A stretch of DNA of 54,482 nt from Ignavibacteria bacterium RIFOXYB12_FULL_35_14 (GTDB lineage: Bacteria; Bacteroidota; Ignavibacteria; Ignavibacteriales; Ignavibacteriaceae), in the NCBI GenBank assembly GCA_001803045.1, contig MHAR01000086.1, positions 1 through 54,482 of the forward strand, written 5' to 3'. This document shows positions 2,084 to 9,067 of the stretch, in pieces. Both the position numbers and the translations under genes were made by a program. A model generated the notes under the pieces. That model worked only from the letters and a program-made list of their open reading frames with translations. It was not told the origin of the DNA and did not search any database. Position 1 is the first letter of the stretch, and every line of letters begins with the position of its first letter.

Positions 2084-2803
2084 TTAGTTTTCAGTAAAAA
2101 TCTCATTAATTCTTCTCCCCCCCATATATTTTTTTGAATAGTATTTATGATCAAGAGAAGAGACAATAACTCCTTTAGATGAGCTGGCATGTGCAAAAAG
2201 ATTATCACCAATATATATTCCAACATGCCCAGGACGAACTGCTCTCCTCGTATTGAAGAAGACCAAATCGCCAAAAGTAAGATTTTCTTTTTTTCTGATT
2301 GGGAGTCCTTGAGTAAACTGTTCGCGGGCGGATCTTAAAAGCATTACATCCAAACTAGTGCTGAATACATTTTGGGTAAATGCCGAACAGTCAATTCCGT
2401 TCTCGGAATTTCCACCAAACTTATAGGGCGTATTGATGTATTTAATAATCTCTATCAACATTCTTTCTTTCAGGGTTGTATTTGCTAAACCCGAATCGGA
2501 ATAATTCTCCGAAGACTTGATTGCTGCAAGAATAGAAGAAATATCAACTTCCGATTCATCTATCAAACTTTCTTCTTCATCTTCCCAGCTTTGAAACTCT
2601 GCAGATGTGTCTTGAACCTGAGAATAATAAAGAAGATCATCACTATCGTCTTTTATTAATCCTGCCTTTAAAGAATCATCGTAACTTGTAATGCCAACGC
2701 TATTTTTATAACGTAAAGAATAGGAAGAAGAGGTGCATCCTAAATATAGAATTGAGATAAGAATAACAAATGATATTAATGTAGCGATTTTTTTTAGCCG
2801 CAT
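2084..2803 (-). CDS. NlpC/P60-family lipoprotein, probable cell-wall peptidase
   Basis: A probable peptidoglycan endopeptidase anchored in the envelope. The N-terminus is a lipoprotein signal with lipobox LYLGC (lipidated Cys23). A charged linker runs to about residue 110, followed by an NlpC/P60 domain with candidate catalytic Cys139 (in GIDCSAF), His193 (in GHVGIYIG) and a third polar residue near His205. Size (239 residues) and order fit Spr/YafL-like enzymes. The start codon comes 3 bases after the rpoD stop, so the two are surely co-transcribed. The actual bond cut cannot be read from sequence. Confidence 0.9.
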   Translation of the reverse strand: MRLKKIATLISFVILISILYLGCTSSSYSLRYKNSVGITSYDDSLKAGLIKDDSDDLLYYSQVQDTSAEFQSWEDEEESLIDESEVDISSILAAIKSSENYSDSGLANTTLKERMLIEIIKYINTPYKFGGNSENGIDCSAFTQNVFSTSLDVMLLRSAREQFTQGLPIRKKENLTFGDLVFFNTRRAVRPGHVGIYIGDNLFAHASSSKGVIVSSLDHKYYSKKYMGGRRINEIFTEN

Positions 2804-2806
2804 AAA

Positions 2807-3661
2807 TCAACCGAGATAAGCTTTTAAATTTTTACTTCGTGATGTATGTCGAAGACGTCTAATAGCTTTCTCTTTGATCTGCCTTACTCTTTCTCTTGTA
2901 AGATTAAATCGTTCTCCAATTTCTTCTAAAGTTAGCGAGTTTTCCTTGTCTAAACCAAAATATAATTTAATGACTTCCGCTTCTCTTTCCGACAGGGTAG
3001 ATAACGCTCGCTCAATCTCCTCCCTTAACGATTCATCCATTAAGAGATGATCAGGAGAAGGTTGAAGATCACTTTGGATAACATCTAATAGACTGTTCTC
3101 TTCACCATGGGTGAAAGGCGCATCCATTGATACGTGTCGGCCGGATATCTTTAATGTGTCGGCAATTTCTGAGGCATCCATATCAAGTTCTTTAGCAAGT
3201 TCATCAGCGCTCGGTTCGCGTTCGAACTCTTGTTCAAGATTACTGTATGCTTTACCAATTTTATTGAGAGCACCAACCCGATTTAGCGGTAATCTTACTA
3301 TTCTGGATTGCTCCGCTAGCGACTGCAGAATTGATTGTCGTATCCACCAAACGGCGTAAGAAATAAATTTGAAACCTCTTGTCTCATCAAACCTCTTGGC
3401 AGCTTTAAGTAATCCAAGATTTCCTTCGTTGATAAGATCCCCAAGTGATAGTCCTTGGTTTTGATATTGCTTTGCTACACTGACTACAAATCTCAAATTC
3501 GCTTTAGCAAGATGTTCTAAAGCCGCTTGCTCGCCTTTTCTAATTCTAATAGCCAATTCAATTTCTTGTTCGGTTGTAAGCAAATTAATTTTTCCTATCT
3601 CCTGAAGATATTTATCAAGAGATTGGTTTTCGCGATTTGTAAACTGCTTTACAATTTTCAC
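2807..3661 (-). CDS. rpoD: Housekeeping RNA polymerase sigma factor
   Basis: Primary sigma-70 factor that directs RNA polymerase to vegetative promoters. The 284-residue protein lacks region 1.1. It begins with the region 1.2 motif [10 protein letters not shown], has region 2 with [12 protein letters not shown] and [10 protein letters not shown], region 3 around residues 155-205, and region 4 with [20 protein letters not shown]. This short architecture is normal for Bacteroidota and Chlorobiota. The start is GTG with only a weak AAGG upstream. It heads a two-gene unit with the NlpC/P60 lipoprotein. Promoters of the form TTGnnn-17-TATATT elsewhere in the window fit what this factor should recognise. 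Confidence 0.95.
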
Positions 3662-4049
3662 TAGCCAGCCTTTATTAATTATTTTGCTATTAGAAAAATT
3701 TTTACATTTAATTTAACGGATTACACCAGTTCCAAATTTGCACAAAAATAAATGATTAATGATTCAAATGAAAGTTGTAAATAATTTTTTACATTAGTGG
3801 AAGAGAGAAGTATAAAGAAGATTCTTTTAGGTTAATAATTTCGGAGGATTAGAAAATTATTTTTTTATCGGATAGCTTTCACTTTAAATCTAATTCATTT
3901 TGGTGATAAACCCTCAAATCAATTTTCTTTTTGATTCAATAAACTTGATGACTACTCCCTAGGATAATGATTGCATAATCTTTATCAATTTTACTTTTAT
4001 CGCAATTTCATTACTTAATTTACTCTCAACAAATTGACTCTGTTGTCTA
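3662..4049. other. Intergenic region between deoB and rpoD, nothing recognised
   Basis: This AT-rich stretch of 388 bases holds no open frame of note on either strand and no tRNA-like or strong hairpin structure. It must contain the rpoD promoter, since the next gene upstream, deoB, ends at 4050. Several TTTG and TAnnTTTG-like boxes occur, but none has convincing spacing, so no site is called. Confidence 0.5.
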
Positions 4050-5213
4050 TTATTCATTTAAGAAGCTTTCCCCTTTAAGAGAATTACTCACACCAAAAAA
4101 TTCTGCAGCAGTTTTACCAACATCGCTAAATGTGTTTCGTGTTCCCAGATTTTTTCCGGCTTTGCTTTTTCTATAATATATTAAAGGAACATATTCCCTG
4201 CTGTGATCCGTACTTGGTGTCGTTGGATCATTTCCGTGATCCGCTGTGATAACTAGAGCATCTGATTCATCAAGAACATTAATCAATTGGGGTAAAACGT
4301 GATCAAAATTCTTCAATGCATCTGCAAAACCATGCGGATCGTTACGATGGCCATAGTAAACATCAAAATCTACAAGATTAGCTAAGATAAAACTGTTTTT
4401 ACTTTTGCAAGTGTATTCTAATATTTTTTTAAATCCCTCCTCGTTGGATTTTGTTTTTTCGATTGTCTTTATTCCACGGTAATTAAACAGGTCATTAACT
4501 TTTCCAATGCCAACTGTGCTTATTGAGTTTTTAGATAAAACATCCAAAATAGTATCATCGGGTGGATTCATTGAAAAATCTTTTCGGTTTACTGTTCGAA
4601 TATAATTCCCTGAATTGCCCACGAAAGGTCTAGCAATTACTCTTCCAATCACTATTGGAAAAGTTAAAACTTCCTCTCGAGTTATTTTACAGATTTCAAA
4701 AAGATTTTCCAACGGAATGATTTCCTCATGGGCTGCAATTTGAAAAACGGAATCTGCCGATGTATAAATTATTGGAAAACCCGTTCGAACATGTTCATCA
4801 CCCAGTTCCTGAATTATCTCCGTACCAGAAGCAGCTTTATTACCAAGAAATCCTTTACATCCCGTTAGCTTCAGAAATTTATCTGTTATCTCATCTGGAA
4901 AACCATTTGGGAAATATGAAAAATCTAAATCCACAAATATCCCGCCAATTTCCCAATGGCCTGTTGTTGAATCTTTTCCATTTGAAATTTCTTTCATCTT
5001 CCCAAATGAAGCTTTGGGATTATCAACTTTATTTATTCCCCTGACATCATAAATATTTCCAAGTCCCAGAGCTTGAAGATTAGGTAAGTTTAAACCGCCA
5101 ACTGCTAGAGCCGTGTTTACGAGAGTATTACTTCCCTCATCTTGATAAAGATGAGAATCAGGAAGTTCACCAATACCAACCCCATCCAAAATAATTATGA
5201 TAAAGTTATTCAT
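4050..5213 (-). CDS. deoB: Phosphopentomutase
   Basis: Interconverts ribose/deoxyribose 1-phosphate and 5-phosphate, linking nucleoside breakdown to the pentose phosphate pathway. The 387-residue protein belongs to the alkaline phosphatase superfamily. It has an N-terminal metal site ILDGVGIGELPD, the phosphorylated Thr region DSTTGHWEI (Thr83/84) and the second metal site ADHGNDPTTPSTDHSREYVP. Length matches known DeoB. It lies 38 bases after the GAF/GGDEF-like gene and may be read from the same transcript. No other nucleoside salvage genes are nearby. Confidence 0.94.
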   Translation of the reverse strand: MNNFIIIILDGVGIGELPDSHLYQDEGSNTLVNTALAVGGLNLPNLQALGLGNIYDVRGINKVDNPKASFGKMKEISNGKDSTTGHWEIGGIFVDLDFSYFPNGFPDEITDKFLKLTGCKGFLGNKAASGTEIIQELGDEHVRTGFPIIYTSADSVFQIAAHEEIIPLENLFEICKITREEVLTFPIVIGRVIARPFVGNSGNYIRTVNRKDFSMNPPDDTILDVLSKNSISTVGIGKVNDLFNYRGIKTIEKTKSNEEGFKKILEYTCKSKNSFILANLVDFDVYYGHRNDPHGFADALKNFDHVLPQLINVLDESDALVITADHGNDPTTPSTDHSREYVPLIYYRKSKAGKNLGTRNTFSDVGKTAAEFFGVSNSLKGESFLNE

Positions 5214-7322: not shown

Positions 7323-7907
7323 TTAATAAAATATTTCTTCAAAAAGTTTTGCGATTTCTTTTTTACCGCGGAGTTTCACAGAGGAATAATATACCACATT
7401 AGAATTTAGATCAATCCCCGGAAAAAACTGTTTCAAGTTTTTCCTTGCTAGATTTTGTTCAGATTGTTTTAGCTTATCTACCTTCGACAATAGAATTATA
7501 TGAGGAATATTTAAGTCTTGCAAAAGTTTGTTCAAATGATGATCAAGATCAGTCGGTTTATGACGGCTATCGATAAAATGGATTGCTAACCGGACGTAAC
7601 TCGATTTTGTTATGAATTCCCCAATTAATTTGGACCAATGAGCTCGTTCAGCTTTACTGGTTTTAGCATAACCATAACCGGGTAAATCGACAATATAAAA
7701 TTTACTATCTATCTCATAAAAATTAATCGATCGAGTCTTTCCGGGCGTGGAACTGACTTTTGCAAGGTCTTTTTTATTAAAAAATGAATTAATAAACGAA
7801 GATTTGCCAACATTAGATCGACCACATAGAATTACTTCGGGCAATCGACATTTAGGAATTTCGCTTAAATTAAAAGCGGATTTTATGAATTGCTGCTTTT
7901 CAAACAT
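7323..7907 (-). CDS. engB: Ribosome biogenesis GTP-binding protein YsxC/EngB
   Basis: Small cytoplasmic GTPase needed for late assembly of the 50S subunit. The 194-residue protein shows G1 GRSNVGKSS (29-37), the G3 region VDLPGYG, and G4 as LSKVDKL. Length and motifs match YsxC/YihA. It is the first gene after the ribosomal supercluster and reads in the same direction, but it is separated from rplQ by a terminator, an insertion-like segment and a second terminator copy. It therefore probably has its own promoter just upstream. Confidence 0.95.
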   Translation of the reverse strand: MFEKQQFIKSAFNLSEIPKCRLPEVILCGRSNVGKSSFINSFFNKKDLAKVSSTPGKTRSINFYEIDSKFYIVDLPGYGYAKTSKAERAHWSKLIGEFITKSSYVRLAIHFIDSRHKPTDLDHHLNKLLQDLNIPHIILLSKVDKLKQSEQNLARKNLKQFFPGIDLNSNVVYYSSVKLRGKKEIAKLFEEIFY

Positions 7908-7951
7908 TGTAAAAATTTCGTATGCAATTTAAGTCGCTTAATTCAAACTAT

Positions 7952-8020
7952 AAAGTATAAAGAATTTAAAATAAAAAACCCCGAAAAATCGGGGCTAAAA
8001 AAATTATTCTTCATCTTTCT
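7952..8020. repeat. Direct repeat copy A: duplicated rplQ 3' end and terminator
   Basis: Positions 7960-8020 match 8511-8571 over 61 bases without a mismatch, and the match extends leftwards to 7952 across a 7-base indel. The repeat contains the rplQ terminator hairpin and the last codons of rplQ including the stop. It is the engB-side copy and has no gene attached. Confidence 0.93.
7971..7994 (-). terminator. Intrinsic terminator, duplicated copy
   Basis: On the minus strand CCCCGA-TTTT-TCGGGG is followed by a run of T. It is identical to the rplQ terminator and lies between the insertion and engB, so it should block leftover read-through toward engB. Confidence 0.8.
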
Positions 8021-8495
8021 CCTGTTTTCCGCAAGCGATTTTTAGTTAAGAGTTAAATCATTGATAATAAAGCACTTAACTAAGTGAAATTTGTCAATTT
8101 GGGTGCTGCTCAACTATTATCGAGTATGTTTTTTAAAAATTTAGCAGGGAGATTTAACAGTTTTAATTTTTAGTAATGATGTTTCTGATCCATCAGGTTA
8201 TTAGGTCGCACTCTATCAAAATCTATTGCTAATGTTTGCTACAAATCCACCTAAGGCGGACTCCTAATTGAGCAAATTAAAATTGCTATGCTGAAATAAA
8301 ATTAGTTCCAGCGGAACGACCTGTTTGTAATACAAATAAGCAAAAAGATAACTAAGCTCCATAGGAGCGACCTATGATTTTCTGTGATGGTGTTCCATTT
8401 TAAATAACCAATTATTATTAAAATGTTAAATAAAAAAAGCAAGGATGTGACTTTTCAATAATTATCACGCAGGGTGCTGCATTGCGGAAAACAGG
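8021..8495. mobile_element. Putative non-autonomous insertion with terminal inverted repeats and long direct repeats
   Basis: A 475-base gene-less segment. It begins with CCTGTTTTCCGCAA (8021-8034) and ends with the exact inverse TTGCGGAAAACAGG (8482-8495). The outer edges of these 14-base inverted repeats touch the two direct repeats (7952-8020 and 8496-8571) with no gap. This is the arrangement of a transposed element with a target duplication, although a 60-75 base duplication is far longer than transposases normally make. No open frame of useful length is present, so it would be a MITE-like or decayed element. Inside are two GACCT-tailed hairpin units and a near palindrome at 8246-8260. 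An integrase attachment scar is an alternative. Confidence 0.6.
8305..8373. repeat. Two GACCT-tailed hairpin units, 51 bp apart
   Basis: Unit one (8305-8322) is GTTCC-AGC-GGAAC-GACCT; unit two (8356-8373) is GCTCC-ATA-GGAGC-GACCT. The stem bases differ yet pairing and the GACCT tail are kept, which suggests conserved structure rather than chance. The inverse core AGGTCGC also occurs at 8203-8209. They resemble dispersed palindromic repeats, but copy number in the genome cannot be known from this window. Confidence 0.6.
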
Positions 8496-8571
8496 AAAGT
8501 ATAAAGTAAGAAGAATTTAAAATAAAAAACCCCGAAAAATCGGGGCTAAAAAAATTATTCTTCATCTTTCT
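8496..8571. repeat. Direct repeat copy B: native rplQ 3' end and terminator
   Basis: The rplQ-side copy of the duplication. It includes the last 17 bases of rplQ (8555-8571) and the terminator. It differs from copy A by a 7-base insertion, TAAGAAG, at 8507-8513. Confidence 0.93.
8524..8545 (-). terminator. Intrinsic terminator of the S10-spc-alpha cluster
   Basis: A perfect six-base-pair stem (CCCCGA/TCGGGG, loop TTTT on the minus strand) followed by a T-rich tail, starting 9 bases after the rplQ stop. It marks the end of the ribosomal cluster transcript. Confidence 0.88.
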
Positions 8572-9067
8572 TTTTCCTCTTTTTCGGCTTCGACTCTTTC
8601 TCTTCCACAGCTTCTTCGGCATCTTTCTCTTCACTCTTTGCTTTTTGTTTAGCTTCCTTTTTAGCTTCTCTCTTTTCCTTATGTTCTTCAGCTTTTTTGG
8701 TAATCACATCATTGTAATCAACCAGTTCAAGTATTGCCATTGATGCAGCATCACCCATTCTGTTGCCAAGTTTTATTACGCGGGTATATCCACCTGGGCG
8801 CTCACCGATTTTCGGTACAACTTCGCTGAACAACTCTTTCACAACATCTTTATCGTTGACAAATCTCATCACATGCCTTCGTGAGTGAAGATTATTCTTT
8901 TTAGCTTTAGTAATTAAAGCTTCAACATGTTTACGAGCTTCTTTTGCTTTGGCTAATGTTGTTTTTATTCTTTTATGCTTTAATAGAGAAGTTGCAAGCG
9001 CATTCATTAATGCTGCACGGTGACTGTGTGTTCTGCTTAACTTTCGTCCTTTTACTCCATGTCTCAT
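8555..9067 (-). CDS. rplQ: 50S ribosomal protein L17
   Basis: Large-subunit protein lining the outer end of the exit tunnel. The N-terminal 120 residues are typical (MRHGVKGRKLSRTHSHR, then GGYTRVIKLGNRMGDAASMAILELV). The 170-residue protein carries a Lys/Glu-rich C-terminal tail of about 45 residues that most L17 proteins lack and that is likely disordered or RNA-contacting. It is the last gene of the alpha operon, 20 bases after rpoA. Its final codons and terminator are duplicated downstream. Confidence 0.97.
   Translation of the reverse strand: MRHGVKGRKLSRTHSHRAALMNALATSLLKHKRIKTTLAKAKEARKHVEALITKAKKNNLHSRRHVMRFVNDKDVVKELFSEVVPKIGERPGGYTRVIKLGNRMGDAASMAILELVDYNDVITKKAEEHKEKREAKKEAKQKAKSEEKDAEEAVEEKESKPKKRKKKDEE

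Follow-up and report, generated by a model that had tools for sequence, protein, structure and literature searches.

The insertion between rplQ and engB

The stretch of DNA analysed here (54,482 nucleotides, contig MHAR01000086.1 of Ignavibacteria bacterium RIFOXYB12_FULL_35_14; hereafter the window) raises the question of how a gene-less segment with perfect inverted ends came to lie inside a puzzlingly long duplication of the tail of rplQ. The segment spans 475 bp (8021-8495), between an engB-type gene and rplQ. The gene names derive from a preliminary description of the sequence and from general family features; we thus take the gene at 7323-7907 (minus strand) to be an engB/ysxC-type GTPase gene, and that at 8555-9067 (minus strand), which is intact, to be rplQ. 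The left terminal inverted repeat, CCTGTTTTCCGCAA (8021-8034, plus strand), is perfectly complementary to the right one (8482-8495, minus strand) over the 14 nt originally described, and over 15 nt if the flanking T/A pair is included (8020-8034 and 8482-8496, 100% complementary). The element contains no ORF of at least 60 aa, the longest one fully within it being 46 aa. A small RNA was also sought in the element using Rfam, and this candidate was rejected, as all eight matches fell below their gathering scores.

The inverted ends adjoin, with zero gap, the two copies of a direct repeat (7945-8020 and 8496-8571). The preliminary description had reported 61 identical bases in a repeat that includes the rplQ stop, last codons and terminator. 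These 61 bases are indeed exact, but they are only the last part of a repeat of 76 nt, of which 73 are identical (96%), with mismatches at repeat positions 4, 14 and 15; the next-best direct repeat within 7500-9000 is 28 nt long, at 79% identity. From the direct-repeat comparison and the hairpins, each copy includes the last 14 coding bases of rplQ, its stop, and a terminator-like hairpin on the minus strand. In the copy joined to rplQ (8496-8571), the hairpin is at 8528-8547; the outer copy (7945-8020) is a detached rplQ tail with a second terminator, at 7977-7996.

We then compared the rplQ-engB gap with that in ten relatives (one from the same genus, the other nine from the same family) picked from 60 such genomes. 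The two genes are adjacent in all ten. (In one of these loci, L155, the alignment of engB began at residue 4, and its start was moved back 9 nt by hand.) The gap is 647 nt in the window, versus 54-93 nt in all ten relatives, none of which has the element there; in the same-genus genome, it includes a single terminator. Subtraction of the element and of one repeat copy from the 647 nt leaves 96 nt, compared with 93 nt in the same-genus genome. Because the gap is so much longer here than in the relatives, we conclude, as the preliminary description had proposed, that the segment is an insertion with target duplication. That rplQ is intact, even though one end was apparently joined within its last codons, is explained by the fact that the end of the gene lies in the repeat.

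Relatives of the element, with and without a transposase

The right end of the element, GGGTGCTGCATTGCGGAAAACAGG (8472-8495, plus strand), is the same over 24-25 nt as the right ends of the elements at loci L125, L111, L140, L134 and L086, and a scan with the pattern GGGTGYTGCANNGCGGAAAACAGG identified 63 stretches in other genomes, mostly of Bacteroidota, with some from Ignavibacteria/Melioribacter and two Peregrinibacteria records. Five of these stretches are full-length elements with the same inverted ends as the window element, namely L114 (1637 bp), L142 (1639), L088 (1636), L095 (1637) and L125 (1720). The right 24-25 nt of the window element are 88-100% identical to those of L114, L142 and L125, and the left-end 11-13 nt are identical to theirs. 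An inner motif of the left end, GGGTGCTGC (8101-8109, plus strand; element position 81), recurs in direct orientation at the right end; similarly, the sequence GGGTGYTGC is found at position 69-70 and at the right end in all five full-length elements, with an extra copy at 153 in L125.

Between the ends of each full-length element there is a transposase frame of 507-519 aa, which ends at the right motif. It begins at position 90-91 in L088, L114 and L142, at 174 in L125, and at 55, as called, in L095. The protein of L142 matches the model NF033559 with 356.2 bits (cut-off 100), while the next family, IS4_1, scores 38.7 bits, under its cut-off. Among the 12 of its 45 plasmid relatives that were listed, nine are annotated as 'IS1634 family transposase', and three are without annotation there. 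Because its ends are common to full-length IS1634-family insertion sequences (ISs), we assign the segment to this family, as a non-autonomous derivative, or MITE (8021-8495, plus strand, with the left end being that nearest the missing transposase start). We consider it very probable that the segment is such a MITE-like derivative, with a long target duplication, and that its past movement was due to the transposase of a full-length relative. This reading draws on direct observations, i.e., the shared ends, the transposase family, the element-free short gap in relatives, the long repeats in the family and the intact rplQ.

A second copy exists in the same genome (contig C20, locus L016); it is 104 bp long and has the same ends, with the left 88 nt being 73% alike. 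These two are the only copies found in this genome, and the same-genus genome yielded none. This scarcity, and the modest likeness of the left parts, could be taken to mean that the segment is not mobile at all, and that an inverted repeat came to lie within a tandem duplication by chance or through a local rearrangement. The short, element-free gap in all ten relatives examined speaks against this notion, as do the occurrence of the same right end in 63 stretches of other genomes and the existence of full-length ISs with the same ends; we thus assign it a negligible probability.

Signs of the origin of the short elements

A search for the left-end pattern in 294 genomes of the class yielded 23 sites in 21 genomes, versus 5 control sites. 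When these 23 sites were tested for an opposite end, a close one was found, besides those of the two copies described above, at L074 only, with borderline cases at L068, L079 and L065. L074 is also the only one of these sites with a nearby match to the L142 transposase. The element at L074, in a class-level relative, is 513 bp long and has the same ends; the first 95 residues of its frame are 54% identical to the L142 transposase, and its final residues, on visual comparison, are similar to the end of that protein too. The frame has no match among the NCBIfam models, and is 100% identical over 128 aa to a frame in another Ignavibacteria bacterium (L132). L074 thus looks like an intermediate between a full-length IS and a short element, and the resemblance at both ends of its frame, as judged by eye, is what an internal deletion would leave.

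The elements of 92-104 bp suggest a related origin. By eye, in a comparison of L085 with L142, they appear to be made up of the full-length left end, as far as GGGTGYTGCA, and of the right end, beginning with this motif; a deletion between the two short direct repeats of the motif would make such products. An internal deletion is therefore suggested as the origin of L074 and of the 92-bp elements; for the window element, it is the ends that point to such a descent. Its interior (8110-8471) gave no match to the L142 transposase in a tblastn search of the window with E-values up to 10. On one contig (PUKZ01000104.1), two 92-bp MITEs (L131 and L135) have a common right flank and different left flanks.

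Other sources for the interior were also considered. The elements at L126, L103 and L110 (449-587 bp) each consist of two MITE units of about 100 bp, in direct orientation and with a spacer, as detected by a two-unit composite test with z-scores of 16.3, 13.5 and 8.4, respectively; L111 gave a weak signal (z 4.4, 30 nt). The window element scored 2.3 in the same test, which does not show it to be a composite of two such MITEs. Two short hairpin units within the element (8304-8379, plus strand) have matches of 74-82% in three related genomes (G054, G023 and G039). The pattern of these units occurs at nine sites in the genome itself, versus seven in the control; with no clear enrichment, a repeat family of this genome was rejected as the source of the interior. 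In addition, positions 8123-8152 match, at 93% over 30 nt, a stretch upstream of a pair of small ORFs in another genome (L043 in G059); this pair may be an antitoxin-toxin operon.

A cognate transposase with these ends was not found in the genome of the window element, which has two NF033559 matches, of 306 and 27 bits. The former is the only strong IS1634-type transposase gene found there (contig C25, 64-1470). However, it lies at a contig start, its match stops before the end of the profile, and no element end of this kind is visible there or follows the match. This gene, which is probably truncated and of another subgroup, was therefore rejected as the partner transposase.

Long direct repeats across the family

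The direct repeat at the element ends was measured wherever both ends and usable flanks were available, in 21 elements. L074, L088 and L095 were dropped, their flanks being too short; also set aside before counting were those loci among the 63 in which no left end could be recognised, two weak left-end candidates (L087 and L116), and secondary end pairings within one locus. The right part of L126 did not enter the count as an element of its own. A repeat touching both ends is long in 8 of the 21 elements, and none was detected in the other 13, including the C20 copy and the full-length L125. Besides the window (73/76), long repeats are found in L085 (25/27), L111 (95/116), L113 (57/69), L114 (66/66), L115 (39/46) and L142 (54/54); that of L103 (235/305, 77%) is doubtful. 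Only three full-length ISs had usable flanks, and in two of these, L114 and L142, the long repeat is perfect. When the flanks of the 21 elements were paired crosswise, 419 of 420 pairs scored 6 or less, compared with 67 for the window's own pair. The single exception, also scoring 67, combines flanks from two loci of one metagenome bin, L126 (left flank) and L110 (right flank), which share 69 of 70 positions of a 70-bp repeat; this suggests that two copies recombined, or that the assembly joined them.

Loci with related ends were examined as well. A search for the IS1634 family in 391 genomes of the class gave a match in 94, of which 34 were over the cut-off, and 29 new loci. Four of the latter have both long repeats and inverted ends of a related type, beginning CCTG or CCCG, namely L165 (45/46), L167 (150/151), L175 (73/73) and L176 (119/119); another three (L164, L178 and L185) have direct repeats without matching inverted ends. 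Among plasmid records, of which the best 3 of 45 were inspected, repeats of 406/406 and 33/33 were found on Persicobacter plasmids pPP1 (L188) and pPP7 (L189), and one of 679/680 on Aliarcobacter cryaerophilus plasmid pCNAC48 (L190; element 2386-4122); these IS1634-family insertions, too, have ends of the related CCTG or CCCG type. This last repeat, of about 680 bp, spans about four fifths of a crp/fnr-type gene that is annotated on both sides, and is longer than the 8-514 bp cited for IS1634 and IS1549 (PMC2266710).

A stricter scan, for repeats of at least 25 nt joined to inverted ends, detected such structures at 9 of 95 loci. It found none at 78 control loci, which are mostly about 3 kb long and thus shorter than many element loci; the 79th control locus was the window's own, L074 and L082 were left out of the control set, and L016, which holds the C20 copy, was kept in it. 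The scan did not pick up L111, L113, L115 and L103, whose repeats are 77-85% identical, nor L165. Long repeats of variable length, with their edges at the element ends, thus occur in this family, albeit not at every element.

These data bear on two other explanations of the window. The first is that the segment is the scar of an integrative element, whereby a tyrosine recombinase acted at the 3′ end of rplQ, the 76-bp repeats are attL and attR, and the cargo has been lost; the preliminary description had raised this as an integrase scar with a long attachment core. Gene 3′ ends and terminators are a usual place of att sites, and the repeat does contain a gene 3′ end and a terminator and leaves the host gene intact. 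Att sites, however, need no perfect inverted ends such as those that adjoin the repeats here; there is no integrase gene between the repeats, where no ORF exceeds 46 aa; and the same or related ends occur at other sites together with an IS1634-family transposase and with unrelated repeats that range from 27 to about 680 bp. No att core is common to these insertions, whose repeats differ from site to site in both length and sequence. This explanation is therefore highly improbable.

The second alternative is that a MITE was inserted with an ordinary short stagger, and that the tail of rplQ was later copied to its other side by an unrelated local duplication. The repeats of 5-6 bp that the family table of PMC2266710 gives for IS1634-family members would be in line with this scenario. 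Yet the edges of the repeat coincide with both element ends, not only in the window but also at the perfect repeats of L114, L142, L175, L176 and L189, and one would not expect separate, later duplications to end at the element boundaries in every case. We regard this second scenario as very unlikely, and retain the view that the repeat was generated by the insertion of an IS1634-family derivative.

Joining sites and a possible mechanism of duplication

Inspection of the bases next to the elements revealed a preference in the target. Among 58 distinct right flanks (from the 63 stretches, three being too short and two duplicates), 41 begin with A, against a background of 30% A, and the second base is a purine in 48. 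Reading outward from the two ends of 15 elements, we found A as the first base in 27 of 30 cases and a purine as the second base in 27 of 30; the three ends without A in first place are all left ends. This A belongs to the target rather than to the element, since it is part of the perfectly matching repeats in L114, L142, L175, L176, L188 and L189. Because both ends show the same A-purine preference at spacings that range from tens to hundreds of bases, separate selection of the two joining sites is a better fit than a fixed stagger; that is, the data suggest that each end finds its site independently of the other.

The preliminary description had envisaged that terminators or gene 3′ ends are targeted, but the reading frames at the other sites give no support for this. 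At nine sites tested, the frame overlapping the repeat is whole in two (rplQ, and 560 aa in L188). It is broken in L114 (415 aa), L175 (60 aa) and L189 (68 aa), of which the last two may not be genes; at the remaining four, no frame of 60 aa overlaps the repeat. Thus, a long duplication can spare a gene, though not always, and the feature common to the sites is the A-purine beside the ends.

We propose the following course of events for the window. The transposase of a full-length relative would have acted in trans on the element, recognising its ends, CCTGTTTTCCGCA...GGGTGYTGCAnnGCGGAAAACAGG. One end would have been joined within the final codons of rplQ, and the second end beyond the terminator, 76 bp further downstream; fill-in of this 76-nt stagger would then have produced the long direct repeat, with rplQ keeping its own stop and terminator in the process. 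A more general model can be put forward tentatively, as a possibility that we would not yet call probable: in IS1634-family transposition, the two ends would be joined at independently chosen A-purine sites, 27 to about 680 bases apart, so that each insertion amounts to a small segmental duplication. A gene would survive if its end lies in the duplicated stretch, and the elements could thus enter gene ends such as that of rplQ; as MITEs with little beyond their ends would do the same, the property would reside in the ends and the transposase, not in the cargo.

Relation to known systems

The puzzling long target duplication can be explained as a known, little-studied behaviour of the IS1634 family, now seen in a MITE whose host belongs to the class Ignavibacteria. 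There is thus little here that is new in kind, the segment being neither a new class of small element, as had been suggested, nor an integrase scar: its ends are those of IS1634-family ISs, some of which are reported to make long, variable repeats (PMC2266710). What the analysis adds is a set of insertions with perfect repeats, which bear on the way in which duplications of variable length are produced by these transposases, and, in the A-purine preference at the ends, whatever their spacing, a concrete clue to the mechanism.

IS1634 of Mycoplasma mycoides and IS1549 of Mycobacterium smegmatis are the closest parallels. Like the full-length relatives described here, whose transposases belong to the family NF033559, they generate long and variable direct repeats, of 8-514 bp according to PMC2266710, where it is also stated that no mechanistic model for such duplications had been proposed as of 2008. 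The end CCTGTTTT of the window element fits the IS1634-family consensus C-----YT given in the same source. Unlike IS1634 and IS1549, which are full-length ISs, the window element is without a transposase. Long repeats are not universal in the family, since the other members in PMC2266710 have repeats of 5-6 bp, and ISPfe2 has repeats of 6 bp (PMC3281130).

As for MITEs, none with long repeats was seen in the literature searched, in which subscription journals are little covered, making this weak evidence of absence. MITECca01 of Cardinium is likewise explained as a derivative of a parental IS without the transposase gene, but it belongs to the IS982 family, and the sections of PMC9769881 consulted describe no long direct repeats. 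The Methanosarcina MITEs related to ISMba11 and ISMac10 (247 and 249 bp; PMC3852290) differ from the window element in that their hosts are archaea and in that their direct repeats, as given there, are 6 and 0 bp rather than 76 bp; they resemble it in being short, in having inverted ends, and in having an IS1634-family IS as partner.
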